Assembly (NCBI GenBank): GCA_907165275.2
Contig: OU015660.1
Coordinates: 10,604,501 to 10,668,500 of the forward strand
DNA length: 64,000 nucleotides
Reading direction: 5' to 3'
From: Zygaena filipendulae
Taxonomy: Eukaryota; Arthropoda; Insecta; Lepidoptera; Zygaenidae
Part shown: one piece after another, positions 1,487 through 46,869 of the stretch
Layout: every line of letters starts with the position of its first letter
Position numbering within the stretch: the first letter of the stretch is position 1
Position numbers and translations under genes: made by a program
Notes under the pieces: model-generated
Told to the model about the DNA's origin: nothing
The model's database searches: none
Seen by the model: the letters and a program-made list of their open reading frames with translations, nothing else

Positions 1487-4020
1487 CTAGATCCTTGAAT
1501 ATTGGTGTGTAAATGAGATGCATGGATGGTATCCACTAATGGATCCTTTTCTCCATACAATATCATGGTTTGGCATTTAATATCCTTCAGAATATGAGAA
1601 CAAATGTTGCCATCATTGGCTTGGAATACTTTGGTCATACTCTCCGTCCATTTGCTCCAGTATTTGGCAAAGAACTCCTCACCATACACATCAATCATTG
1701 GTTGTTTCATTCTTTGAGACCAAGTGTTTATGTCTTTGGTTTCTGTAAGAGGTTTTTAAAATTTTTGTCTATGGTCACAGTTTTTTAAGAGTAGGAAATA
1801 AGAAATTTTGTCACCAATATACAACGTGTTAATGAATTAACTGAAAACCTGAAACACCCCATTTAAAAAAATAAACAATAATATGATTAAATTATATTTT
1901 ATGTCGAAAAAATGTATACTTTAAAAGTTATTCAACCTTAGTTTGGAGGTGACCTATCTAAGAAATTCCAAGCGCTACGCCCGGCCGCGCGGTTCGAATT
2001 TTTTTGCTGCCGGCGGCTGACGTGCCAAATATTGTATTATAAATAATTTAGACATGGACTAGTGAAAATGAAAAAATATAACCTATATTAAAACATAGTG
2101 CGATCGATTCGCTTGTCGATTCTGAGCAAACTATTTATTTATTTATTTAAAGAACTTTATTGCACATTTACGTACAAAAGGCGGACTTAATGCCTAAGGC
2201 ATTCTCTACCAGTCAACCTTTTGGCTAGGGGATAGTTTCTAGTTTCGTAAACTACTTTCTAGTTTTTAGTTAATTCATTAACACGTATAAAAAACCTGTT
2301 TACTATGAATAATATGATGTTTTTGAATTTTTGGAATGGTAAAGTAACAGATGTCTAGAGCCAATTTTTGTGTCAGTCTAGAGCCAGATGAAAGATTTTG
2401 CAGATTGCAGAACTGTGTGGTTGTGGCTGTTGCTGTTGCAAATGCATTTTACTGCACATTATAATATAGATAGAAAAAGAATAGATAATAGCTATAGCCT
2501 ATAGAGAAGAGTCTATGTCATAGATTCAACGTTCAAAATTTATTTTATTCTTACTCTGGATAGCTTCTAGTTCTCTGGGCAGCATAAATGCATTAGCTCC
2601 CCATACAACCAGTTTGTTCATTACAGATGGGTACTTGGCTGCCAGGATCATGCCAGTTATACCACCATCACTCCAGCCAAGAAGTGAATATTTTGGTAGG
2701 TCTAATACCTGTAAAAGAAATATTATTATTATGTAATTATGTAACAAGAACATCATTATCTATTTCACATTAGTTGTAAAATGCATAGTACCTAACATTT
2801 GTGTGTACAAAGGTGACAGAAACTCGAATGTCATCCAAAGAGGTAGCTGGTAGAAAGAACACTGTACCTTCACTTATTAAGATCTTTGAATAAATATGAA
2901 TGACTTGTTTGCTTTATGTTTATAATGATGTTTTATAGAGGATATCTTTGGCAAAATTGTAAGTTTTGAACTGAGTAAACCAAGATTCAATAACAAAAGT
3001 ACCTATACCTACATCCAAATTATTTACACACCCTCATAAAATCATGGGCTGCCACAGCATCTTTATCATAGAAATCCAGTGCAAAATCTTTGTCAGGAGG
3101 TCGACTCTTGCCATAGCCTGGTGGGTCCCACACAATTAATGTAAACTTTTCTCTGTCAAACCCCTCTATTTGAGGTTTAAAGTCGGTCCATATGCTTCCC
3201 AGAGCACCAGGCAAGCATAAAACATTATGTGGTCCATTACCAATTTTCAGGTAATTTATATTCCACTGACCAACCTTTACTTTTTCTTCCTGAAAAATAA
3301 ATAGCACAGTTTGTATTTTGGTGATTATGTGTTTTTTTGGTCTAGATTTTTGAGCACATATTATTATCTAGGTAGGTAGGTACTAGGCTAATACAAATAC
3401 GCTCAATCCTTTTTGTGACATCACTGATTATAGAATCGTATTTACGACGCGGTCTTCTCGCGAAAACCAACATTAATTGATTTATATTTTACTAGCTGTG
3501 CCCCGCGGTTCCACCCGCGTGAGTTTCGGAGTTCCCGCGGGGATTCCGGGATGAAAATAGATAGTAGCCGATTCTCAGACTTACTGAATATGCATAAAAA
3601 ATTTCATGAGAATCGGTCAAGCCGTTTCGGAGGAGTATGGGAACGAACATTGTGACACGAGAATTTTATATATTAGATCTAATTTTGTACCATAGGCCTA
3701 TATATGATACGATACGATTCTATAATCAGTGACGTTAGTGCTCAAGAAGTCTGAAGTCCTTCCATAGAACTAGCAAAGAGTATATTAATATAAAATAACC
3801 ACTACGTCTGAAATCGAAAGGCACCAAGTTGATAACTGTACACTCAGACGAAATCTTTTTATTTCGTCTGAGACTGTACATAGGTACCTACCTTATCAAT
3901 ACTCGCGGGGGATGCAGTTATCGTAGTAGAACTAGAAAACCTATTGTATATCTTCAAATGATTAAAATTGCGATTTGGATAGAATTTCAAAATAAAACTT
4001 CTAGATGTGAATAACATCAT
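1487..4020 (-). CDS. BPHL: Valacyclovir hydrolase / biphenyl hydrolase-like protein (mitochondrial alpha/beta hydrolase), 3'-partial in window
   Basis: Serine alpha/beta hydrolase of the BPHL family, which cleaves amino-acid esters and probably acts in mitochondria. I read four coding exons: 3892-4020, 3032-3289, 2555-2708 and 1487-1742. All borders are GT-AG and the phases agree (0, 0, 1, then two bases left over). Exon 1 opens with two ATGs in an A-rich context and gives a 43-residue N terminus rich in Arg, Lys, Ser and Asn with no acidic residue until near its end, which suits a mitochondrial presequence. Exon 2 has the strand-turn residues LPGALGS and WDPPGYGKSRPPDKDF. Exon 3 has the nucleophile elbow LLGWSDGG (Ser about 142). 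Exon 4 has GEKDPLV (catalytic Asp about 247) and ends at GS. By homology the next segment should carry the catalytic His (GKHN motif in the human enzyme). I do not find it before base 1, so the last exon lies outside the window. About 265 residues are present, against about 291 for the human protein. A small palindromic insertion sits in intron 1. Confidence 0.93.
1821..2286. mobile_element. TIR element (family with 11702-12053) interrupted by a retroposon
   Basis: Ends ACAACGTGTTAATGAATTAA and TTAATTCATTAACACGT are inverted. The interior matches the element at 11702-12053 in the opposite orientation. It lies in the last visible intron of the BPHL-like gene, between exons 3 and 4, and is split by a 116-bp insertion at 2133-2248. 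Confidence 0.65.
2133..2248 (-). mobile_element. Short retroposon inserted in a TIR element, AAACT target duplication
   Basis: Minus-strand copy with an (AAAT)n tail at its left end, then the shared body ...AGAGAATGCC...GGCATTAAGT... Flanked by AAACT at 2128-2132 and 2249-2253. Comparison with the uninterrupted relative at 11702-12053 shows exactly this segment as extra. Confidence 0.65.
3491..3679 (-). mobile_element. Helitron-like non-autonomous copy
   Basis: Minus-strand copy reading from CTAG with the hairpin CCCCGCGGT...ACCCGCG to a GATCTAATATATAAAA start. Sits in intron 1 of the BPHL-like gene. Confidence 0.65.
3843..3872. mobile_element. Mini-palindrome element, copy 1 (30 bp) with 8-bp target duplication
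   Basis: Arms CTCAGACGAAAT and ATTTCGTCTGAG, perfectly complementary, around a 6-base loop CTTTTT. Flanked by ACTGTACA on both sides (3835-3842 and 3873-3880). It lies in intron 1 of the BPHL-like gene, with its right repeat about 11 bases from the splice donor at 3891. Confidence 0.8.
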
Positions 4021-4402
4021 AATTATAGTAGGATAGTAGGTATACAGTAGGCACCAGAGAGAAGGTAATCACTACGCACAAACTACTTAGTAGGGTACCT
4101 TATCTTTATTTTTAGTAGGTAACACAAACTACATAAGTGCTCTCCACATTGTGGTATCATGGTTCGCGGGTGTTTCGCGGCTGTTTCGCGGCTTCGCGCG
4201 CGAATGTGGAGCGCGCTTTAGAGATACTGTAGGTAAGTACCTACCTACTTCACAGATGCGAGAAATATTTTATTTTATAGAAATTCGTACGGAATTTTCA
4301 ATATTGTCAAATAATTAATTAGAAAGACCAGAAAAAACCTTGAGAATTACCAGAAGAAATAAACAATTCTGCATTCGCATTTCGCACCATATATTATCAT
4401 TA

Positions 4403-4601: not shown

Positions 4602-4839
4602 TTAGAGTAACCAGAGAGAAGGTAATCACATCTCTAAGTAGTTTGTGGGTAAACACATCAGAATTGGCAGTATGGGCCCTGTACTCTTAGCCTTTCCTAC
4701 ATAGGATAAATAAACGAAAAAAAAAAAGTTTGTGGGTAATCACTACTTAACATGGCTACCAGATTACCTTCTCTCTGATGGCTACTTACTAACTTTATAA
4801 TATGTCTAGTTAATCTGAGACTTATTTTATTTTCGCACT

Positions 4840-5560: not shown

Positions 5561-7628
5561 GATCAAAGAGTAGGTACCTACTTGGTACCTATAGTAGTAA
5601 TTTTACTATACCAAAAGTGACCAAAAGGAACCTATTTATTTACTAGGTACCTTAGAAGAATAACTGTTCTGAGCTAGGTACCTAGTTTAGTATATTTAGA
5701 TTAATTGTTTTTTTTATAAATTTACCCCTTTTAGAGAAGGCAAAGGAATCTAAGTCCATACAGTCAATTCAGTTGTATTTTTTCTTTTTCTTCTAAAGTT
5801 ATTTACATCGAAATGCATTGATGAGATGCATTTCGATGCTTTTCCGGAACTTGTGGCAGCAACTCTTCACAGCTGAACCTTAAAAGACACTCTGTGGGAA
5901 GTTCTTTTAAAACAATAAATTCATCTTATTTCACTGTTTCCACACACTGTTTATCACTAATGGATCACTATTATGCAAAATCCACCATTTTTACAAAATA
6001 TTAATCATGATAAAGTAATTTGTAAAATAAAGACATAAAACTGCCATCCATTTAACTGGTAAGATCCCGCCAAAAGTTCGTTCGAAAATTGATTTTTTTT
6101 AAATAATTTTACCGCCCGGTACCTACGTACTAAGTCAAACACGTAAACTGGCTAAGTCAAATCTAACCTACTATAAGATCTCACATTTTTAAATAACAGC
6201 AATTGTTATAGATATCCAATAAAGCAAAGAAATAGAGTTTAATACTTGTTCATAATGTTATTTTGTTCCTATAAATACATATTTCGATTTTGCATAGAAC
6301 TTGGCACTCATTTAAATCTCCATTCTTTTTGCGGCAAAGCCCATAGCCAAGCATAATTTTTTTATTTAACTTGACTCTCCTTTTTTACATTTATATTTTT
6401 GGTGGGATATCATTACTTTTTGTAAAGAATATAAAAAATACGCGCTAAACAACACACCGTTGGCCGATTGTTTAGTTGTGCGTATTACAAGTTTTTTGTA
6501 TGGGGACACCACTTATTTTTATTTTTTTTCCTAAGCTTACACACAATTACCGAGCTGGATTCCAAATTTCATCCTTCTAGGTCATCTGGAAGTAGGTTAG
6601 ATTTAGGTACTATATGTCAGTACCTAAATCTAGTAGTTAGTAATAAAATTTTACTTTTTGACCTTCGTATCTTTATAACCATTTGAGCTAGCTCCATGAC
6701 ATTTGGGCGTCTACATGTCCTTATGGATATAATTAAACACACGTAGTTTTGTGTTTACGTTAAAGAGGTTTTGAGTTATAGAAGGGTCAAAAGGCACCAA
6801 GTGATTCGTGTAATATTACACTCGGCGCTGGCTAGCCAGTTCCTTTGCTTGAACTTGGCTTGACACGCTGCCGCGTGTCTAGATGTTTTTATCCTTTGAA
6901 CGGCAAAAAACTGTGGGAACCCTAGTCTAAACACCCAAAGAGTATATAACCACTACGCCGTTGATCGAGAAAACCAACAGTCCCAAGATATAATTTTTTT
7001 TATTTAAAGAGCCTAAGAATAAAACAACTTGTATTTGTATTAAAACTGTATTTACGTAAGTAAGCATTGGCTAGAAAGTTTAATCACTAGACATTATGCT
7101 TGTGTCAATGTTAAGTAAAAGCAAAGAACATAAAATTAAACTGTTACTCTGGGTACTAATGACCAGCAGCTTATATTTTTTGGAAAAATAAATAAATTTT
7201 ACTGTGGAATCATGTGGGTACCAACCAACCAATCAACTCTCAAAGGTAGGGTGAAAATAGTGAGAACACGCGCTTACTGCTCCAACTAACAACAAAAGAG
7301 AAAATTACGTGTTTTATAGCTGGGGGAGCCAATCTTTCCGTACATTTAGAAGTAGAAGATATTTTTGTTTACCAAGACGCTGTAAACGGTTGAATTATAA
7401 TAATAAATGCCACGACTAAAGAAAGTTAATCTACCTTTTTTCTATGGTAGAAGCCATAGACTTGTGGCTTATTTACCTAAAATCATACGAAATGTTAAAT
7501 TACATTCTTGGGTTAAATGCTTCAAAATATAATCCATTAGCCACCAAGTATCACTTGTAAAGACATTTTAAAATATTCTCATTTCACAAAACTTGATCAA
7601 GTTTCATATATTTAATTCCTTAGTAAGG

Positions 7629-8206: not shown

Positions 8207-11200
8207 CTAGTCTAGTTCGCCGGCGTTGCACGCGTCCTCATAGCTCTTGCCCTTCTGCTCGGGGTCCAGTTTGATCATGTCATCGATGCGTAGGATCGTG
8301 ATGGCCGCCTCTGTGGCGAACTTGAGCGACTTGATCTTGGAGATGGCCGGCTCCAGGACGCCGGCGGCGACGTTGTCGCGCAGCGTGCCCTCTTCCAGGT
8401 CCAGCCCCACCCATTTGAGCTGCGCGTGCTCAGTCTGACGACAAGATTACATTACCTACATTGTCTTTTTTTCTCGGCAAAACATCTTAGTCCAAGGGGT
8501 GCATTGAAAACCAGCGCTGGGTGAACATCTGGATTAAGGATGTTCATCCAGCACACGCTGAATACTCGATTACATATTGCTGTGCAGTTTTCACTGTTTT
8601 GATGGGAACTGAAGGTAGCCGGTTCGTTAGTTCAAATTTAAAAAGTGGATTTTTTTTTGGTGTAGTTTTGGACTGTATAGCGCGCTTTTTTGTGCGAATT
8701 AAAATATGTATATGTGGGGTCCTCCAAGACCGCTAGTTAACTAAATATTTTTTACTCCGACACGTAGATAAATAAAAAATTGGACACGTGTTTTTTTAAT
8801 TTTTTACATAATCATAAAATGTCGCCTGACGTCACGCCATGCTACAGTTTATAGGACGTTATGACGTCACGAACCCCCACTCTAAACTTTTGATGCGCTT
8901 TATCTAAGTATTTTTTTCATTAATTTGTAAAACAAAAATATTCGTGTCTATTATTTTTTTATTATCAAACTGACGAACTAAATAGAAATTTGATTTTCAT
9001 GCCCCGGAAACGTGCCTTTTCGATACTACAACTATACTGCAGTTTCAATTCAAAATTAGCTAAAAAAAACGATTTCCGAAAAAGCGACCTTTTTATGTGA
9101 TCCCTAATATCCGGCCTCACCTTATCTTATTTTAGACAATGGGGTGGGCAAGTAAAGCCTCGGCACTTCGACCCTTGGCATCGTTTGTACCATCCCCATC
9201 CTGTGCGCCTCCCTCTACTCCCTGAAAACCTCGACGGCGAAGGCAAGCGTGCAGTGGAGGGGTGAGAGCCTCTAGGCTAGTTGGACATAGATAAGCAATA
9301 GTGTGTTAACCCACGTTGGAGAAATTTTGGGTAAATCGTGTTTTAAAATCATTGCGTCATTTTGTTTCAGCATTTTTTTATGTTTAACATTTTTTTGGTA
9401 TTTAAACAATGTAATAAGGTAAACACATAATTGAAAAACGTTCTATAACTCTCAATAAGGCGTTTTGAATCAATAAATTAACATTGTGGGTTAACATGTT
9501 ATTGCTTATCTGCGTCCAGTTCTGGGTAAGCCGTCCCCAGTAGGGTCCGTACGTTTACGAGCCGAGGCACCGCACTCGCGCATAAGATGTGCCATTGTTG
9601 GCACGTCTACGCCGCACTTCCTGCAGCGGCCTCACCTTGGTCTGCGAGGAGTTGTGGTAGGCGCGCAGCTTGGCCACCAGGTCGGTGGCGTCGCGCGCCG
9701 CGTTCACCGCCAGCGTCTTGGGGATCACGAGGAGCGCCTGCGCGAACGCCGCTATCGCCAGCTGCTCGCGGGAGCTCTGTCGGTTGTAGCACATATTTCT
9801 CTTTGGGTTTGTTCTCAATGCAATGTTATTAGTACACACTCGGCTCCACTTTTACTCTCGAATCGTCGTGAGTCATAACCAACATTACGCACTCGTATCG
9901 TAATCCATACTAATATTATAAGGAGGTAAAGTTTGCGTGTTTGTGACGTTGTAGGGGGTAATCTTTGGATCTACTGAACAGATTTTGAAAATTCTTTCAC
10001 TTACGGTAGTCCCGAGTGACATTGAGTACTTTTTATCCCAAAATTCCCACGGGAACTCCGAAATTACCGCGGGTGAAACCGCGAGATACAGCTAGCAGAA
10101 TCTCGGAAACGGCTCCAAAGATTTTCATGAAATTTAGTATGCAGGGGTTTCGGGGGCGATTAATCGATCTAGCTAGGTTTCATTTTTAGAAAACGTCATT
10201 TTATCCGTGTTTTTAGGCAATGAAAATGAGTGGAACTGCTTTTTTACTTAACAGCAGAGGGCGCTGCGTGCGAAGCTCGGTCGCCTAGATATTGTACTAC
10301 TAGTTGTGCCCCGCGGTTTCACCCGCGTTACTTTCAGAGTTCCCGCGGAAATTACGGGATAAAAAGTACCCTATGTGTTAATCTGATGTATAAGCTATAT
10401 TATTGTAAAGTTTCATTTAAATCCATCCAGTAGTTTTTGCGTGAAAGAGTTTGGAGTTTGGTTTATCCATCCATACATTCTTAAAAACTTTCGCGTTTAT
10501 AATATCAGTAGGCTAAAACACGATTCACACAAAATAGCTGCAGTGTGGGTTGCAAGTTGCCACACTGTCGCTTATCGGTGTGCGCGGTGGTGACCGCTCA
10601 CCAGCGTGGTGGCGAAGTTCTCCAGGTAGATGGAGAGCGCCGCCTCCACGGCGCCGCCGCCGGGCGCCAGCCGGCCCGACTCGAGCACGCGCCGCACCGC
10701 GCACAGCGCGTCGTGTGCCGAGCGCTCCATCTCGTCGCAGTACGCGTCCGTGGGCCCGCGCAGGATCAGCGACGCGGCCGTGCGCGCCGACGGCCTGCCG
10801 ACGCGACAGGTACACCATTATTATACTGGTACTAGCTGTCCCCCGCGATTCCATCCGAGGTAATTTCGGAGTTCCCGCGGAGGTTGCGGGAAATAAGTAC
10901 TCTTTGTCCTTCTTTGTACCCCGACAGTAGTTTGTGCCGGAGTTCCCGCGGGAATTCCGGGATTTAAATTATCCTATCTTTTAAGTTGGACCATATTATA
11001 AATGGTTACAAAATTTTATCAAAATCCGTTCAGTAGTTTCGGAGTCCATCGCGGACAAACAACGTGACACGTGATTTATATATATTACTAAGATAAGATG
11101 GTATCTATTATTTAATTATACTGCGAACAAATTATTATGTATCTATTTCCCTGCGCCGCACTCAGGGACGCTGGTGGGACTACTGGCGCTGACTGAAAAC

Positions 11201-14200
11201 CCGCGCTGAGGGTTCCCATCCTCAGCATATGCCGAGTCAGGTGCCATTTGCAGCAGCAGAGACACACCGCGACCAAAACCAGCCAACCAATCATATGCCT
11301 GTCGTATGCAGGCGTCTCCCATGTTAGACGCAGCGCGAACGTCCGTCCGTTGTATGCGGGCGTCTAACATGTTGACAGAAACACGCTGTACCAAAAAAAC
11401 CGTATATTCTAACTGTCAAAATTGATGATAATGAAGCTTAGTCATCTAACTCATCATAACAAAACCCCAGAGCGGATCCATTGAGAAATATAAACACAAG
11501 AGGCAATAAACATATTAAGTTCCAAGAGCACGCGTTTCACCCGTGTAAGTTTCGGAATTCCGCAGGTACTCCAAAGTAGCCAAATTTACGTCTTAAACCT
11601 TCCCTGAACTTCCACAAATATTTCAAGATCAAAATAAGCCAAATCGGTCCAGCCATTCCCGAGTTTTAGCGAGACAAACGAACAGCAATTCATTTTTATA
11701 TGCAACGTGTTGATGAATTAACTGAAAACTAGAAAGTAGTTTGCTCAGAATCAACTAGCGAATCGATCGCACAATATTTTAATATAGGTTATATTTTTTC
11801 ACTTTATCAGCCCATGTCTAAATTATTTATAATACAATATTTGGAGCGTCAGCCGCCCGCAGCAAAAAAATTCGAACCGATAGGCGCGGGCGTAGCGCTT
11901 GGAATTTCGTAGATAGGTCACCTCCAAACTAATGTTGAATAACTTTTAAAGTATTAATTTTTTCGACATAAAATATATTTTAGTCATATTATTATTGTTT
12001 ATTTTTTTAAATGGGGTGTATCAGATTTTCATTTAATTCATTAACACGTTGTGTAAGTCTTAAGCTGTCCCGCACGGTTTCACCCGCGATAATTTCGAAG
12101 TTCCCGCGGACTTTGCAACTTCTTTTTATCCCCTTAGGGGTTGAATTTTCAAAAATTCTTATCGGATGCTTACATCATTCAAAGAACACACCCTCCAAGT
12201 TTCAGGTCTCTACGATCAGCGGTTTAGGCTGTGCGTTGATCCATCAGTCATTCAGGATAAAGCATTTTATATATTGTATAGATAACCGGCGGCAAATAAT
12301 GAACTTACCCCTTGATCAAGATGAGCTGATCGTCACAGATCTGCTCTTGAACCACTTCAGCCGCCTCGCCAATCATGCTCGCGTCGAACACTTCCTCTCC
12401 TGAAATGACAATGGAAATGTAATAATTGACAATGAGATGGTAAATGGTATAAAATCTAAACAAAACATTGCAGGTTTTGTTATGGGAAATAGCTTATTTT
12501 CACCCTGACATAAGACGTGACGTGGGGGAAACCGCTGGGGGAGAATCATAATAACTAGCTGGTTATATCAAAGGTAGGTAGGTACTGTGGCGACCCCTAC
12601 GCCACAAGTCACGAACTACAACGAAGCGACGAGTACTAAGTTCTGAATCGCGCTAACGAAGTTTTCACACTGCGCTGCATATATACGACCTCCGACGATC
12701 TACTCGGAGCCGCGGTTCCCCGGGCACACCACCTCTCCCGGCGGGAAGCTTCCCTAATGGTGGCGGTCGAGCCATATCACCCATCCTGCTCCCGCTACAG
12801 TACCGAAAAAGATATACGGTAGAAAGTGCTTTTATCTCGGAATACTCGCGGGATCTCCGAAAGTGACGCGGGTAAAACCACGGGGAAGCTAGTATAGATA
12901 AAATAACTTAGAAAGTATAACTAACCCTCCATGTTGGTGAGCGAGGTGAGGAAGGTGGCCCCGGTGGCCTTGGCGATCCGCTTCAGGTCGGCCTTCTTGC
13001 AGCGGCGCACGCCCATCGCGCCCGCCTCCACGAAGTACTTGAGGCAGAGGTCGTCGATGCCGCCGGAGCAGAGGATCACGTTGACGCCCGTCGCCAGGAT
13101 CTTCTGCAGCCGCTCCTTGGTGATGTCCAGCTCGCGGGCGCGGATCGCCTCCAGCTTCTCGGGGTCCGACACCAGCACCTGCGAATGTTGACATTCCAAT
13201 GTCGCTTTGTGATCATCACTACATAGTATAAAATAAAGTCGCTTTCTCTGTCCCTATATCCCTATGTATACTTAAATCTTTAAAAATACGCAACGGATTA
13301 TGATGCGGTTTTCACCAATGGATAGAGTGATTCATGAGGAAGGTTTATAACTATATTTTATCCTGGAACCGCGGGAACTCCGAAATTACCGCGGGTGAAA
13401 CCGCGCGGGTCAGCTAGTAAATAATAACAGAGAAACACAAGAGCATGCAATCTATTTTTGTGTGCCAAAATGTATTCAGATCTTTACTAGAATGATAAAA
13501 AGCATGTCCTTTATAAATAACAGAAAATAGGCTATTAGACTAAACTTTTGTTTTTAGTCAGCTCTGTGGATTTATAAAAAAATATTTGACACGTATATTT
13601 TCTCGTTTACGAAAGTAAAAAATAACGGAGATACGTTGAGTCGGAATATCGCGTGACGTCATAAGCAGGTACAGTTTCTACTTGCATAATGATGTTATTA
13701 ACCCCACTCCTAGACTTTGATGTGCTTTATCCAAGTATATTTTCATTTGAAAAAGCAAAATATACATAAGTGTCTATTATTTTGTATCTAGCTGACAGAC
13801 TAAATAGAATTTAGAAAAAAAAAGTCAAACAGCATTGTTAATTGTTATGGAACTATGAAAATTAAAAAAAAAAGCTTTACCATAAAATTTAATTCAAATC
13901 AACATAATATGATGTTTTGAGTTGGATTCGATAGCATTTATTATGTTATGTTACTAATACATATTAGAGAGTAAAAACGAGTGGTTATAATATGTGTTAG
14001 AGAGCAAGGTCTACCTGAACACCCATCTTCATTTTCGTCTTCTGCAGCGAGAAGTCCAGGCAGGCGATCTTCGCGTTGACCACCTTCTTGGGCATGGCCT
14101 GCGAGGCGACGGTGCAGTTGAGCGCGTAGCCCTTGACGAGCACGCTCTCGCGCGCGCTGCGCCCGTGCGCCTTCAGCACGTTCACCGCTTTGATCGGGTA

Positions 14201-17200
14201 CACGGCGTTGCCGCGGCCGTCGCTCGTCTTGATCGCCTGCGCCGCGTTCACCACCATCTCGGCGAAGAAGTCTGCGTCACTGTTGTGTTGTTTTTGTTAA
14301 GGAATTTAAAAAAAAAGAGCAAATTGATAAAAGCTTTATCTGTCATGGACTCATGACACACAAATATTACAACGCACATATTATTGTCGAGGGTGCATCC
14401 CTCCAGTCCAAACTGATCGGACATAAAATGACTCACTATTGCCATTGCTGACTAATTTTAAGAATTACTCAGCAATGGCCTAGATAACTTTTTAGTTTTA
14501 GTCCGTCTTGTAGATTAGGTACTTAATAAATGAGCTCAGAGTATCAATGCAATAAGCATTCCAATGATGGTTGGTAATGCCTCAAACACACAAAAAAGCT
14601 GCTTATGGTCCTTGGACCGATCACAAACTTTAAAAGGGTAAAAAAAATTATGCAAGTCTATCGATAATAAAAATAATGAATTGAAATATCGTGTAACGTC
14701 ACACCTAGGTAACTTTTTTCTTGCATAAAAAATTTATACTTAGTATTTTTAGAATTTGAAAAATGAATTAGAAAAGATTTTTACAATATTACTGACAGAC
14801 TAAATAGATCATCATGCCCATTCATATTCTAGATCAGAAATAGTGGCTAATACTTACAATGTAAGTTACATGCTAATGTTAGGCCTCCAACATTCTGAGT
14901 CAAAATTACATTGACCCCGTTGCTAGTTGCTACCCACAAAAAATTAGACACCTCACTTATTTTATTTTAATCACCTATCACACTCACACCAGTTGGATAT
15001 TATATTTAAAAGGATACGCTCCAATAAGCTTGGACGACATGGTGGTTTTGGCGGCGTTCACAACAGATGCCTTGCCCAACGACTCTACAGTAATTGTGAG
15101 GTTGTCCTGAATGTACTTGACGGCCTCCTTACACGCTAGACGGTATCCAGAGATAACGCTGGTCGGGTGGATCTTGTTCTTCACTAATTCATCAGCATTC
15201 TGGAGAAAAAATGCACATTAATAAGGAATAACATGTTAAGGAAACTTTAGCTAATACAATGACCTACAAATAAAGCCCAAAGCTTTGATTAGTAATGAAT
15301 CTTTTAAACAGGCGCACATCAATAACATCTCGTCGCAGAGACACAAGAAGTCAAAACATTTAAGTGCAAGTATAATAATTCTAGAATTTGGTAAAAAAAT
15401 ATATTTTGCTTAATTATGATTGTACCACTATCAAAGATAATTACTAAATATACATTTATTTATGATGATGATTCGAACACATGGAGAACTGAGAAGTATC
15501 CTGTGTGCAACTTATGATCCTTCCATCATCATTATGTTTCCAAAAGTAACCGCCACACTCAGAGTCGACTTTAATGATTACTTAGTTAAGTATAGATTTT
15601 TAAAACAAAACTGCCGCAATCAGACAAGTTTAATAAATTAATGTTAATTGGCATTTAACTAATTAAGTTACATCTCATTAAATGCCAATTAACATTAGTT
15701 TACTGAACGTCTGATTGCGGCAGTTTTGTTTTAAAAATCTATACTTAACTAAGTAATCATTAAGGTCGACTCTGAGTGCGGCCGTAAGTGGAGTTTTGAG
15801 ACGTTTTTATGTGTGCTGCCTAAGAACTAAGTGGACCAATACCTTTAATAGTTCAGCAGCAATAATAACAACAGATGTGGTGCCGTCTCCCACTTCCTCA
15901 TCCTGGAGTTGTGCCAGCTCCACCAGCACTTTGGCAGCAGGGTGCTCAACCTCCAGCATTCTATTGCACAATAAGTAAAATTTGTTCTGTTCTATGTCTT
16001 GGAATGCTCCAATTAGGTTTTGTACTTGCAAATCTTAAGATATATAAATCACGTGTCACGTTGTTTGTCCGCAATGGACTCCTAAACTACCTAACGGATT
16101 TTGATAAAATTTTCTAACCACTTATAATATGGTCCAACTTAAAAGATAGGATAGTTTTTATCCCGGAATTCCCGCGGAAACTCCGAAATTACCGCGGATG
16201 AAATCACGGGGGACAGCTAGTTATTAATTATGTATTGAGTGAGCATCTTACATAATTCCAAGTGACAGAAATACTTTTATTGGTTTATAGTCTGGAATCA
16301 CCAGAGAAGCAATTTTTTTATGTAGTGACTTCATTAATAGAATCATTGCCAAAACAGTAGATTCATGAAATACTATATTGGGATTGGAATTCCACCAGGA
16401 ACTTTTAGGTACACAGATTTATGATAATAATAATTTATTTCGGACCGTGATCCATATCGTGTTAGTAACAATAGTAACTTATATGCTAGTGTTAGTGTGG
16501 TACATTTTTTTTTATCTACTTATTCTATTGTGGAGCTTCATCCATCTTTGGAAGAGTTGGGAGTCCCAACCTCCCCGCAAACACACTTAGGATGACATTG
16601 GAGCATTAATATAAGCATTAATTGTTTTATTTGTCAACAGCTAAGAGTTTAATTTTCGGAAGAGGACTCACTTGAGGATGGTAGCACCATCGTTAGTGAC
16701 AGTGACATCACCTATGTCATCCACCAACATTTTGTCCAAACCCACAGGCCCCAATGAACTCTTGACAATATTTGCAATTGTAGCAGCAGCCATGACTGGA
16801 AAAAACAAAATATGCTTTTTATATCATAACTTTACATAGATACCAATTGAAATTTTGCTTCACAAAACTATAACACTGCGAGGGTCATGGGGTCTTTGTA
16901 CAAGGAGATTGATGTAATATTTTTTTTTACTAAAAATACCTAATTGTTGGATTTTTTTTTGTTCTAGATATGAATTAATTTTATTGAGGAAAATTGACTG
17001 GTAAGAATTCTTTCATATACCTGTTTACATTGTGTAATAAATTTTTTTGAGAAAAATTGACTGGTAAGAATTCTTTCATATACTTATTTACATTGTGTAA
17101 TATCTGTAGCAATTAAATTTCTGCAGTTTAGATGAGTACAATTTCCCTATACATGAAGTAGGTACCTACCTAGGTATCAATAGAAAAAATCCAGTAAATT

Positions 17201-17636: not shown

Positions 17637-18282
17637 GTTTATTTAAAATTCAACACAAACGCAAGAATTAATCTGCAGTCACTCTTTCTTTTTTCAATCC
17701 AGGAAAGTGACTTTAATGTAAAATGTTGCCAGTTTCTGCCTACGAATAAAAATTGAGTTTGACAGTATCGCAGACTTGCCATTCGCCTATCGGCGTATTG
17801 CCAATGACAATGTAATAAAAGTATAATAAAATTAAGTAAGTTAAACCTGGGAAAATAAATTAATAGTGGGAAAATGATAATTTAAGATTGTTCCCCAAGT
17901 TATACACGGTTCTCTCTCGAATACTCGTTGTTTTTTTATGTAAGTAACCAAATTGGTTATTGATTGTTATGACACGCGTGCACTCGGACCTCCAGTCTCC
18001 ACTCTCTAGTCTCTACCCAACAAAAAGCAAACTACATACCTACCTATTACCTACTTTGTGCTCGAACTGCTCATATTGTTCTATTTCGTAGACGGTTCCT
18101 ACGTTCTATTTACTCTCAACTCTAATTGCTTTGGGAACTGAGAGCTTTAATATTCTAGCGTTAGGTATACAAAATACACTTAAAAAGTGAATTAGATACA
18201 GGAAAAAAAAATATTTATATAGGTACCTACCTAACCACAATAGATAACTTTAATAATGACATTTTTTGTTATATTTTATGAC

Positions 18283-18312
18283 CTCAGACGAAATTTTTTT
18301 ATTTCGTCTGAG
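18283..18312. mobile_element. Mini-palindrome element, copy 2 (30 bp) with 8-bp target duplication
   Basis: The same 12-bp arms as at 3843, loop TTTTTT. Flanked by TTTATGAC at 18275-18282 and 18313-18320. Located in AT-rich intergenic DNA upstream of CCT1. Confidence 0.8.
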
Positions 18313-18373
18313 TTTATGACTAGGTATCTCTTGAAAGAGTTTTCTTCCAGCGCTACATAGGTATACGTATACT

Positions 18374-18824: not shown

Positions 18825-19749
18825 AACGTAGCCTGTATATATATCTAACCCGTTTTTTAAAGTTTAGAGTGAAAGAGTGAAACATCCTCGGTGGGTTTTT
18901 TTATAAGTTCGCATTACAAAATTACACATAGGTAGGTATGTACCTACCTACTGTTATATAATTATGATAGGTAGGTACACTCACTGTCAATCATAAAAGT
19001 AGGTAGTTATCGTTTGGGCGCTAGTTCCAGACTTAGGGCTTTTTCATGTTTTTTTGAGAAATCTCAATATCTCAAAATCAAAATAGGGGCTCTTTGTGCA
19101 CAGAAAGTTTAGGTACCTACCTATGGCTTGACATACGAAGACGTACAATACATTAAACGAAGACGTAGGTATCTTGGTAGGTAGGTATATGCAAGGTATG
19201 ATATGGGTGTTAGCATGTTAGGTACTTAACAGCTAGTATTTTTTTAAGACGTGTGTTTTTTATTTAAATTTATAAATGGCGATAGACGAATTTGAAAACT
19301 AACTGTGCAAACATTTTTCCGTTACCTATGTACCTAAACCTTCGTAACATAATATACCTACGTACCTAATTGTAATTGTAATAGATCCCATAGGTATAGC
19401 CAGCCCTTCTGTAGTAGGTACGCAAAATAGGTTCAAACTTAGCAAACAAACAAGAAGTTCCCAAATATGCCAAGAATTATGTGAAGATTCTTACCCATAT
19501 ATTTATGTTACTGAGTGGCGTATACCTACATTAGAATTCATGTCAAGCCGACCTTATAAAAGCTGGCTACAACACAGCCGCGGACCTCCAGTCTTCATTG
19601 GAATGCTTGGCGGCGCGTGCTGTATCTATACGGGAGAATAATCTTGTTTTCTGCGGCTGTTACTAAAGCCAAAAGGTGCTTTTATATTGACAAGACAAGC
19701 GACATACCTATGGCAAAGACAAGTTAATCTTTCTCTTTTTACCGCAGCC

Positions 19750-19761
19750 CTCAGACGAAAT
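19750..19761. mobile_element. Solo 12-bp arm of the mini-palindrome with 8-bp duplication
   Basis: CTCAGACGAAAT lies exactly between two copies of CCGCAGCC (19742-19749 and 19762-19769). It interrupts the terminus of a neighbouring MITE (19764-19952). Either the second arm was lost precisely, or a single arm was inserted. Confidence 0.65.
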
Positions 19762-19763
19762 CC

Positions 19764-19952
19764 GCAGCCTCCTTAGCCAAATTGACAATCTAAAACCGTT
19801 ATCGCTATATAAAATATATCGTCATGTCACGCTGTCACGTAAAATTGTCCAATCAAAATTTCATCTATTTGCGTGACCACGTTGCGTGATACGTTCCTTA
19901 GTTTTCTATAGCGACGATTATAAATTGTCAGCATAGCTAAGGGGGCTGCTAT
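19764..19952. mobile_element. MITE with 28-bp imperfect terminal repeats
   Basis: Left end GCAGCCTCCTTAGCC...TTGACAAT and right end ATTGTCAGCATAGCTAAGG...GGCTGC are inverted. The interior is short and non-coding. Confidence 0.6.
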
Positions 19953-36880: not shown

Positions 36881-39599
36881 ATACAGATGTCGCAATCTAC
36901 ACACACATATTGCATTGATTTTTTTAATTACATAATAAACGTACTTATTAACTAATTCACAGTAGTCTTATATTAAAAAACAGTAGTGGCAAAGTTATAA
37001 TTATAATATTACATGAAAGTATCTATAAGTGTGTTTTCCCTTTTGGCAGAGCATGCAAGATAACTTGGGTTTAGATTGGGTACTTCTTCAATGTTTGTTT
37101 ATTATTCTTGTGTGTTTTGCAGAAATAAATATTATTCTATTCTATTCTAAATGTATGTAAATGGTAAGTTTGCCATACAATCTATTATTTTACTATTTAA
37201 AAGCATATAAAGATTTATTTAAGTATGAAACTTAATGTTACGTATAAAACCCACACCGAGACATTCAATAGAAACTTATTGACCCGATTGCGCTGCCATG
37301 TAAAGATGACGATAATACTTTTAACCCTTCCTTTTACTCGTAGGCAGATAAAATGTTTTTCCTTTGCACGCCGTGAAATTCACTATTTCAGCTACATTTA
37401 TCCCGAACGTCGCGTCGCGCTGTTTTATCGTGTAGGCGATATAGCGAAGTCAGGAACGTTCAGGCGCATTTTGTCCAATTCGCAACGACTCGCCAATGGC
37501 TGTAATATCCGCCGGGGCGCTTATTTAAATAGGGAACTATTTCGGCAATCGTCGATCTATAAAATAGACGCAGATAAGCAATAACATGTTAACCCACAAA
37601 ACGAAGTTATTGATTCAGAACGATTTATTGAGATTTAGAGAACGTTTTTTAATTATGTGTTTACCTCATTACATTGTTTAAATATGTAACTAAATATTGA
37701 ACATAAAAATTCTTGACACAAAATGGCGCTATAATTTTAAAACTTTAGTTTACTCAAAATTTCTCCAGTGTGGGTTAACACACTATTGCTTATCTATGTC
37801 CAAATTACACGTCAAAAGTTCAAATGCCGCGAGTTACAGATATACCCATAGTTACCTACTCGAATGTCTATAAAGATTAAAGAGGTAAAGTTTGTGAGTT
37901 TGTGAGGTTGTAGGGGGTAATCTCTGGATCTACTGAACCGATTTTAAAACTTCTTTTACCAATAGAAAGTCACGTTATTTGTGAGTGCCAGAGGCTATAT
38001 CGTAACCCGGAATTTCCGCGGGAACTCCGAAATTACCACGGAGTTATTACTACGCGCGGTATGTTTTGTATACATATACTGTAGGTATAGAATATTTTAC
38101 CGTTCGCCTATCGTTTCAGGGTGGAGTCAATTGCGTGTGAGGTTGTTTGTTATTTTGATGATATACCAATGGCAAAAACATAACATGGGTACGTATACCA
38201 CGGAGATATTTTTGGAACGAAGTTCCTGAACGTACCTAACTGGTAGGTACCTATATAGTTAATCATTACGCGTTATGTTAGGAAAAAGCGTTATGCCAAT
38301 GTCCATGAAAATCGTGACGTTTAGTTCCGTCTATGGACCAATGGTCCATAGTTCCGTCCGGCGTAGGTTGAGTATTTATCGTCAAGCGCTTAGGTTTGTT
38401 TATTAAGTGTTAGTTAAATGTGATTATTTTCAGTATTTTTAAATGAAATTCAGAGTTGAAGAAAAGAAGCGGGGAACTTCTGTCCTGAAGGGGGTTTTGT
38501 TATAATTAAACCTTTTACCGCTATGTTTTGGTAGTTTTACTTACCTCCAGCGCCACAAATTTTAGGCATGATTTCTCCTGGTGCCGCGGCGTCGTCAGTC
38601 AGTCGTCAGTCAGGAAATCGTATCTTCGTCAGTATAAAAGCGCTCACTGTTTTGTATTTTGCGAACACATCTGATGTGAAGAAGGCCTACGGATCTGTCA
38701 GCTAATCCACTCGTATATTATGATGGTATAAAGAAAAAAAAAGTATTTTATTTTATGTAAGTTACAATAGATTTAAATACAAATCCGTACTTAGTTAGGT
38801 TCGTGGTAAATACTCACTTTCGATGATAATTCTGCAGTAGGTATTTAAAATTAATATCAAAGAGTACATATTATTAGGGCTTTTCAGTTCAAAAAAAAAA
38901 AAATTTTTTGATATTGCAATTATTGCAATACTGCAGATTTACCATAATAATAAAAAGTATTTACCCTACTATTCTACTATCGATTTCTTTAAATGGATTA
39001 TCTTAAAAGATGATTTTTATAGCGAATGACGCTAGTATTACTTTTGTATGCCTCGTAGGAGTGAAAAAGGGTCAAACGCGGGTGATACCGCGCGTACCTA
39101 CTAGCTATAGTTAGCGATATGTGTTTACGGCGTCTAAGAAGAAAATCACATTTGTCAACGTCCTTGTAATCTATCCCTTAATTTAAAGGGAAGCGTCGGA
39201 GATAAATTTCCATTAGAAGCACGTTCCAGACCAACGTTAATAAGCTAAATCAAACAGAGACGTTTCCAAATACTGAAACTTCAATTTACCAGCGCTGGGC
39301 AATTTCCTAAATCCTTCAGCATCGTTCCCTCCAATTTAGGACTATTCCTGCCCTCTGTTAATTCAGATTCAGTGAATGATGTGCTTTGGCAACTCTAAGG
39401 GGAGCTTTTTCAGTAGTTTGTACACTTTACTTTTTATAGCAATAATGTTTTTTATAGCAGTTCACCTCAGGGGTTGAATCAACAAAAACATGGAAACACA
39501 AACAAAAGACGCAAAGAATAAGGAAATGCAAATTAATATACTTGACATTTGATAATCAAGTTGATAATAGTAAAACCACAGAACAGAAAATAACAGATA

Positions 39600-41377: not shown

Positions 41378-41564
41378 AGCACGAATTTTTTCGCTCTCGT
41401 CCTTTCAATATCGAACGTTTTTTTGTATGGAAAATGAACAACGCCATCTATCCAGTGTTGTTCATTTTCCATACAAAAAAACACTTTGGCATTACGACAA
41501 CGTAGTGATTACCTTCTCTCTGATTACGACGATATCGAAAGACAAGAGCGAAAAAATTCGTGCT
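41378..41564. mobile_element. Doubly nested palindrome
   Basis: Outer arms AGCACGAATTTTTTCGCTCT and its inverse at 41530-41564. Inner arms TTTTTTTGTATGGAAAATGA and its inverse at 41457-41482. The inter-arm DNA includes AGTGATTACCTTCTCTCTGA, also found near 4054, 4612 and 4761. Confidence 0.65.
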
Positions 41565-45060: not shown

Positions 45061-45696
45061 CCTATTTGACCATAGTATTTAGCTCAAAAATCTTACTTTA
45101 AAGTTTTATAATCAAAATAAAAAAAAATATAGACCACTCCCGCAATAAAATAAACATGTCACATTACTGTGTAGGATATGAACTGGTTACAGGTAACGAG
45201 TTAAGATCATTTAACGCAATTTATCACCGTTACAGAGACAAGTAAATAACAGAAAACCGAGCAAATTTTAGGAAAGTTTATTTCATGATTACCGGTCCAG
45301 TTACCAGTGTCAAATCATTGCTGACGAAACCGTGAATACGATCGTGAATATGACTACACCTTTATGTAATACCCTGTATAATATATGAAAATTTGTATCT
45401 TTCTTTCCTATATACCCATCGCCGAATGGTTTTTATGAGAATTGACGAAAGCAGCGCCTCTTCAAAATCTAATTAAAAACCTAAAGATTATTTTTCGCGC
45501 AGGTTCACGCATCTGCTTATATCATTATACTATAGATCTCTAAAGTAGTAGTGGAACTTTTCAATATACTAATATTGAAAACTTGGATAAGATAGAAGGA
45601 GGAGGAGGATAGGAGAGGATAAGAGATAAGATATGAATAAAAAAAAACTTAATACATAGGTAGTAATTATAAAAGGATATTTAGTTAAATCGTAGC

Positions 45697-45729
45697 CTCA
45701 GACGAAATAAAAAGTCTATTTCGTCTGAG
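45697..45729. mobile_element. Mini-palindrome element, copy 3 (33 bp) with 8-bp target duplication
   Basis: The same 12-bp arms with a 9-base loop AAAAAGTCT. Read on the other strand the loop is AGACTTTTT, that is the CTTTTT loop of copy 1 with AGA added, so the copies are related beyond the arms. Flanked by ATCGTAGC at 45689-45696 and 45730-45737. Confidence 0.8.
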
Positions 45730-46869
45730 ATCGTAGCATACAAAGTTGGTATAAATACACGTTCTCAAGTTGGAATATTTTAAATCATCTATCAAAAAAT
45801 GTTATTACACCAGTCACCAGCAACGTAATACACGTATAATACGTCTTGTTTGTATAAAAATATGTATTTCGAGTAGGTAATATAATAAGAAAGCGCTCGT
45901 CATGGCATTTATTAAAAAATTCTAAGAGGAAAACATGATGGAGCAATTAAAATATTCTCAAGTATTCCTGAATATCCAACATTTTTTTAGTAATAATAGA
46001 ACCACGGCTATTATCGTTTCGAGCTATATAATTAGGCATCACCCATTATTTTGGAAGCATCACGTTCTTTGTGCTCTATCTTGTTTTGGTTTTTCGTTCA
46101 CATTCTGCTCCTAAATACAGAAATATGTACCTACATATAATATTATGTAAATGTATCACCGAAACTGTATGATACTCATCATAATATACCTAACTGTTCA
46201 GTTTGAAAATCGTATCAAAATAATATTATATCTCGTAGATACTAAAAAAAAAAAAGAAGAAAGGCTCTTAGAATATTTTTTAGAGAGGCAGCTGTCATTC
46301 CTAAAAAAAAAAAACAAATTAACATAGGCATAGCATAGAGCGTAAGTAACGAGTAAAGATTTCCGCTTAAAACCATTGATTTACTACTAGACGCTTAAAA
46401 CCCACTACAGAAACCTCTTGCCATAAAATAATAAAAATATTGAGATAGGAAGGATGACAAAAAAATATTTAATGCTTTAGCTCAGATAGCGATGGCCCAG
46501 CTGTAGTACCTGTTTTTGCTGCTTATTCGTAAGTGGGAGGTCGATCTTGGGTTCTATGGGTCATTTCCGATCGATGACCGAACTTTATACTGAAGGAAAA
46601 CATCAGGGGAAACCTACTCTACCTGTCTAATACCTACCTGTGTATTGGAAGCGATTTGACCACACATCCTCAGAGGTTCTGTGGCTCTGCTTATAATGAA
46701 AGCTTTGGTAATGAGAGGTACCTATATGAAGAATATTAACTAAGTTTTTAAAATTATTTTAATTGGAGTCAAAAATCTTACCACCTGTTTCGACTTAAAT
46801 ACTATTACGTGCCTATGAACATATTTAATCTTGTTAAATTTTCTATACATGGTATTACATTATCTGTGT

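Follow-up and report, generated by a model that had tools for sequence, protein, structure and literature searches.

Hairpins flanked by 8-bp target duplications are best read as P-superfamily excision footprints

The closest described systems come from P elements and their relatives. Excerpts of PMC7776569 place the 5'-strand cut of the Drosophila P transposase 17 bp within the terminal inverted repeat (TIR), and they call this long staggered cut unusual, unlike that of other known cut-and-paste transposons. End joining of the 17-nt 3' tails gives, according to excerpts of PMC2895639, a product consisting of a target duplication (TSD), up to 17 nt of TIR, a junction or filler, up to 17 nt of TIR and the second TSD; Table 1 of that paper concerns Rad51-deficient (spn-A) flies and not the wild type. 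THAP9 and the zebrafish P-like elements, as far as PMC7776569 is excerpted, combine a THAP-type transposase with TIRs, 8-bp TSDs and internally deleted copies, and the same excerpts make no mention of footprints. Miniature transposons (MITEs) likewise have TIRs, TSDs and many copies, and lack coding capacity.

Here we describe a family of tiny palindromes which, with high confidence, we interpret as excision scars of larger P-superfamily transposons rather than as miniature transposons. These scars resemble the Drosophila P footprints in the excerpted part of PMC2895639 in their flanking 8-bp TSDs, in a capped number of nucleotides from each TIR and in blunt, microhomology or filler joins. A probable P-type transposase and the 8-bp target stagger are further likenesses to Drosophila P (PMC7776569, in excerpt). 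The two systems differ in TIR sequence and in the limit itself, which is 17 nt in Drosophila and about 20 nt here; moreover, the Drosophila footprints are experimental products of one site, whereas those reported here are natural and genome-wide, about 1,800 by extrapolation. Compared with THAP9 and the zebrafish elements, whose TIRs measure 13 bp in the same excerpts of PMC7776569, the TIRs of this family are long, at about 54 bp. Unlike MITEs, finally, its small copies look like repair scars with a variable centre and not like copies of a fixed element.

Hairpins and a lone arm in the window

The window, that is, the whole 64-kb stretch of DNA that was analysed, corresponds to positions 10604501-10668500 of contig 11 in an assembly of 365,880,709 bases and has a GC content of 36.5%; its repeats look lepidopteran in style. 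A preliminary description of this DNA had reported three hairpins with identical 12-bp arms, each enclosed by perfect 8-bp direct repeats, and all three were recovered at their positions (Table 1). With up to 2 mismatches allowed, the arm sequence CTCAGACGAAAT had 14 occurrences in the window where 4.53 were expected, and none of 100 shuffles reached 14. Exact copies of the 12-mer amounted to seven, namely the six arms of the three hairpins and a solo arm that the preliminary description had not listed. This solo arm also lies between perfect 8-bp repeats; lacking a partner in inverted orientation, it is no palindromic element. Once the third hairpin is reverse-complemented, the variation among the three is confined to one junction between two end pieces.

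Table 1 Members of the family in the window, read as footprints, with their target duplications
Feature	Position	Strand	Remark
Target duplication, left, 8 bp (ACTGTACA)	3835..3842		Flank of footprint 1
Footprint 1: 12 nt of one TIR end (3843-3854) and 18 nt of the other (3855-3872), no filler	3843..3872	+	
Target duplication, right, 8 bp (ACTGTACA)	3873..3880		Flank of footprint 1
Target duplication, left, 8 bp (TTTATGAC)	18275..18282		Flank of footprint 2
Footprint 2: 12 nt of one end, 1 nt of filler and 17 nt of the other end	18283..18312	+	
Target duplication, right, 8 bp (TTTATGAC)	18313..18320		Flank of footprint 2
Target duplication, left, 8 bp (CCGCAGCC)	19742..19749		Flank of footprint 4
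Footprint 4: one TIR end alone, 12 nt, the other gone (12 + 0)	19750..19761	+	
Target duplication, right, 8 bp (CCGCAGCC)	19762..19769		Flank of footprint 4
Target duplication, left, 8 bp (ATCGTAGC)	45689..45696		Flank of footprint 3
Footprint 3: 20 nt of one end (45697-45716) and 13 nt of the other (45717-45729), no filler	45697..45729	+	
Target duplication, right, 8 bp (ATCGTAGC)	45730..45737		Flank of footprint 3

The solo arm falls within an older inverted-repeat element (19764-19949), six bases into its left terminal repeat; the left repeat (19764-19814) and the right repeat (19902-19949) of this element are 76% identical. The right repeat aligns over the joined site through 6 + 45 bases and lacks the extra 20 bp; it serves as an empty site for footprint 4 within the window itself. 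A search for trimmed footprints in the window, covering 547 pairs of 8-mers, yielded beyond the four members a weak case at 5643 as its best candidate. There, CTTAGAAGAATAACTGTTCTGAG stands between two copies of CTAGGTAC (5643-5681) inside a repetitive AGGTACCT stretch; this may be the footprint of a different P family whose terminus is CTYAGA.

The window holds several further features. A second family, hAT-like in its terminus CAGAGAGAAGGTAATC and in its TSDs, has also left end remnants between target duplications; these measure 18 and 24 bp and lie at 4752-4785 and 41491-41530 with the TSDs ATGGCTAC and ATTACGAC. More of its termini occur at 4055 and 4612. Both TSDs fit the hAT rule, nTnnnnAn. 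At 38322-38358, the palindrome TATGGACCAATGGTCCATA, with 9-bp arms and one central base, lies between GTTCCGTC repeats; the direct repeat around it measures 10 bp (TAGTTCCGTC), and the arrangement suggests a small insert from some other family, bounded by a TSD. Exons of the TCP-1/cpn60 chaperonin family (8207-16034) and of the alpha/beta hydrolase family (2526-3367) are present on the minus strand. The string CGTCTGA suggested a Neisseria-type DNA uptake sequence; this candidate was dropped, as the window looks eukaryotic and the copies carry TSDs.

Genome-wide abundance and junction anatomy

Searching the assembly for the arm pair within 30 bp, where the preliminary description had proposed 40 bp, gave 574 matches in 366 Mb and none for the pattern read backwards; hairpin density in the window is above this genome average. 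The arm alone occurred 3368 times in 366 Mb (1666 forward and 1702 reverse), compared to 17 occurrences when read backwards. We inspected 53 hairpins, comprising 50 among the matches listed of the 574 (contigs 1 and 2) and the three of the window. A perfect 8-bp TSD enclosed 43 of the 53, and another 4 matched at 7 of 8 positions, while at most 5 of 8 flank bases agreed in the remaining six (L011, L020, L036, L041, L049, L051). Pairing left and right flanks from different sites produced no perfect match in 2756 combinations. The preliminary description was right to take the 8-bp repeats for duplications of target DNA made by a mobile element; complete elements carry them too (see below). Two of the six hairpins with poor flank agreement, L020 and L051, are 51-nt hairpins with near-identical centres and near-identical flanks on opposite strands and have no 8-bp repeat at their edge; they probably represent a scar within a duplicated or mobile segment.

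A census by hand-labelling covered the first 100 among the matches listed of the 3368 arms (C1:1-9.54 Mb), which fall into 77 loci. Footprints with a TSD of 7 or 8 of 8 made up 53 loci, 32 of them with only one intact arm. A further 10 of the 77 loci were ends of six complete elements, 4 were one-ended elements and 10 were arms without a TSD. Footprints thus stood to complete elements at about 9:1, or at about 5:1 when one-ended elements were counted as well, and scars outnumber transposons in the examined part of the genome. Extrapolating from 53 footprints per 100 arms in this one stretch of one contig, the genome would hold roughly 1,800 footprints.

Six of 87 footprints lie in repeats of which another copy, within the set of sequences compared, aligns over the joined site without the insert; these alignments contain 0-2 gaps for L068 and L081 and 4-21 for the other four. 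Target sites of 47 footprints, symmetrised, favoured T as the second and A as the seventh base of the TSD (0.56). The same sites are also biased nine bases outside the TSD, to A on its left and to T on its right (0.62), which places this bias ten bases from T2/A7.

Among 157 arms examined, 83 cases were bounded by a TSD at 7 or 8 of 8 positions. Four of them (L020, L036, L049, L051) were left out as their repeat does not lie at the element edge, leaving 79 clean cases, 65 with a perfect TSD and 14 with one mismatch; since an intact 12-nt arm was needed for a site to be picked, scars trimmed more severely escaped the count. A TSD partner was absent within 75 bp for 21 of the 157 arms, of which 12 are element ends, 4 belong to hairpins L011 and L041 and 5 are unexplained (L063, L066, L075, L089, L092).

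In the clean cases the retained sequence follows the element TIR to about nt 20 and then ends. The longer retained end measured 20 nt or less in 76 of 79 cases. Its lengths were distributed as 11 nt (1 case), 12 nt (9), 14 nt (6), 15 nt (7), 16 nt (8), 17 nt (10), 18 nt (2), 19 nt (20), 20 nt (13), 21 nt (2) and 22 nt (1). In the two 21-nt cases (L010, L017) the last base is compatible with the other end too, and in the 22-nt case (L069, TSD 7 of 8) this holds for one of the two extra bases. The shorter retained end ranged from 0 nt (14 cases) up to 19 nt (6 cases). Joins without microhomology or filler accounted for 27 of the 79, six of these being single-end; 24 showed 1-3 nt of microhomology and 28 contained filler.

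These data bear on whether the hairpins could be palindromic MITEs of only 30 bp, each transposing as a unit, close to the preliminary description, which had treated them as mobile elements. Such a reading would account for the same arms and 8-bp TSDs at many sites and for identical sequences at several of them, five hairpin sequences recurring 5, 4, 3, 3 and 3 times among the 53. Against it, there were 35 distinct sequences among the 53 hairpins and 61, up to strand, among the 79 clean cases; neither a fixed length nor a shared internal sequence was found, the variation sits at the junction, truncated arms occur and single-arm forms are common. There are also full-length elements that share these ends and the 8-bp TSD, and the retained TIR sequence ends at about nt 20. 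We therefore regard transposition as 30-bp units as highly improbable and find the description of the hairpins as mobile elements unsupported.

Junction variety, the complete elements, the limit of about 20 nt and a THAP exon (see below) together make P-superfamily excision footprints the best reading of the hairpins. A complete element would insert and duplicate 8 bp of target, a duplication that the complete copies display. The transposase would then excise the element with a long stagger, leaving about 20 nt from the outer end of either TIR on the donor chromosome as 3' overhangs; from the retention limit in the repair products, together with Drosophila P, we infer a staggered cut about 20 nt inside the TIR. 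The two non-complementary overhangs would be trimmed and joined with little or no microhomology, at times with filler, to give a TSD, part of one TIR, a junction, part of the other TIR and the second TSD. Where both ends survive a hairpin would result, and where one end is lost, a solo arm. Over the generations such scars may accumulate until they exceed the elements in number.

A staggered cut as the source of the 20-nt limit has a serious rival, which leaves the footprint reading itself untouched. Following a cut at the element boundary, the remnants of 12-20 nt could reflect protection of the ends by a bound protein, or interrupted gap repair. Excerpts of PMC2895639 describe wild-type P repair products as mostly incomplete synthesis followed by end joining, and the hAT-like family of the window also leaves TSD-bounded end remnants. 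However, a limit of 20 nt in nearly all clean cases is not expected from randomly extended repair synthesis, and the cut made by P transposase is known to lie 17 nt within the element (PMC7776569, in excerpt). Overall, we consider protection or gap repair rather unlikely, and a cut about 20 nt inside the TIR the preferred source of the limit.

The recurrent junctions are explained by end joining, and copying would explain them too. The commonest hairpin (5 of 53) equals the product predicted from AGT/ACT microhomology between a G-type and a C-type end. Scars that keep up to 20 nt of both TIRs might also have been re-mobilised by P transposase as transposons of ~30-50 bp. Such re-mobilisation would explain identical junctions at several sites, and we think it very doubtful.

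Complete elements and family assignment

Six complete elements of 833, 1708, 1942, 1635, 1165 and 1041 bp were identified. The first four are bounded by distant arm pairs in the first 9.54 Mb of contig 1, and the 1165- and 1041-bp elements each have one mutated terminus. All six, that is, every element for which both ends were found, carry a perfect 8-bp TSD, as is expected for the P superfamily. In the first four, TIRs of ~54 bp start with CTCAGACGAAATAAAAA(C/G)TC(A/C)AGACGGAGCGCTGT, and the family termini read CTCAGACGAAATAAAAA(C/G)TC(A/C)AGACGG. The 12-bp arm is thus the start of a longer TIR, of which the hairpins keep only the outermost part. For the one-ended elements L098 and L099 no partner end was found within 8 kb, and the sequence stretches of two further element ends, L101 and L107, are too short to show a partner. 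The earlier advice to look for a larger element ending in CTCAGACGAAAT was right, and no element with these ends and a complete transposase was found.

Coding evidence comes from the first exon. An ATG lies 189-191 nt inside one end in L098, L099 and L060, compared to 176 nt in five P elements of the same genome that start with CTTAGATAAATG, a similar layout. In L060, a complete element with THAP exon 1, this ATG opens MPKCVVKGCKNQSTKNKKHDGITFHT, followed by a splice-donor-like GTAAGT as in the P gene L116. The L060 exon-1 peptide shares 72% identity over 25 aa with the first exons of five P transposase genes in this genome; for two further genes the identity is 58-59%. Pfam aligned it to THAP positions 1-21 with an E of 0.011, which is below the cut-off, and the L098 and L099 copies lack the first THAP cysteine. 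On nine open reading frames of complete elements Pfam found no relevant family.

Matches to the P transposase HTH family number 27 in the genome, and several of them fall in long open frames. According to Pfam, exon 2 of L116 comprises THAP (20-84), P HTH, RNase H and GTP-binding domains, and the GTP-binding insertion PF21788 was detected in a P gene of this genome with an E of 2.4e-41; the PF21788 part was found in no CTCAGAC-ended element. The analysis covered 24 of the 27 P-gene stretches, with about 1.5-2 kb upstream; among these 24, neither a CTCAGAC TIR nor a complete transposase gene with CTCAGAC ends was found, and L109 has a solo remnant only. The P element copies L112 and L116-L119 (C3, C5, C10, C21, C7) are ~99% identical over their aligned stretches and all start with CTTAGATAAATGATTGG; L112 has an internal gap.

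Based on the THAP exon, the P genes and the similar ATG layout, the CTCAGAC-ended family is best filed with the P superfamily. The preliminary description had suggested hAT-type transposases from the 8-bp duplication, and the T2/A7 preference would suit footprints of a hAT-superfamily transposon as well: the hAT TSD consensus is nTnnnnAn, and the P target motif carries the same two bases. hAT termini start with CAG, however, and hAT excision leaves a few bases only, whereas the termini here start with CTCAGAC and the long TIR remnants favour the P superfamily, as does the 72% identity between the THAP exon of a complete element and the first exons of P transposase genes. On these sequence features the hAT suggestion finds no support, and we judge a hAT origin of the footprints to be most improbable.

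Novelty and meaning of natural P scars

P excision scars were already known from experiments; new are their natural abundance and a limit of ~20 nt in place of 17. No description of P-type scars in a natural genome was found among the literature titles and abstracts listed, in which subscription journals are thinly covered, and a text search of published papers for the 12-mer returned none. The exact hairpin was absent from bacterial/archaeal contigs and from viral contigs (0 and 0, the window's own genome possibly being excluded), and the 17-nt terminus had 6 matches in viral contigs, none with a partner arm.

With about 1,800 natural junctions by extrapolation, the likely cut length of about 20 nt can be read from an assembly, and natural scars also show the end-joining habits of the host germline directly. 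P scars can be taken for miniature transposons, as happened in the preliminary description. If scars were indeed re-mobilised, they would constitute very small mobile DNA. Finally, the scars record transpositions of elements that have since vanished, and TSD-bounded TIR remnants can be searched for, for other P families, in other genomes.
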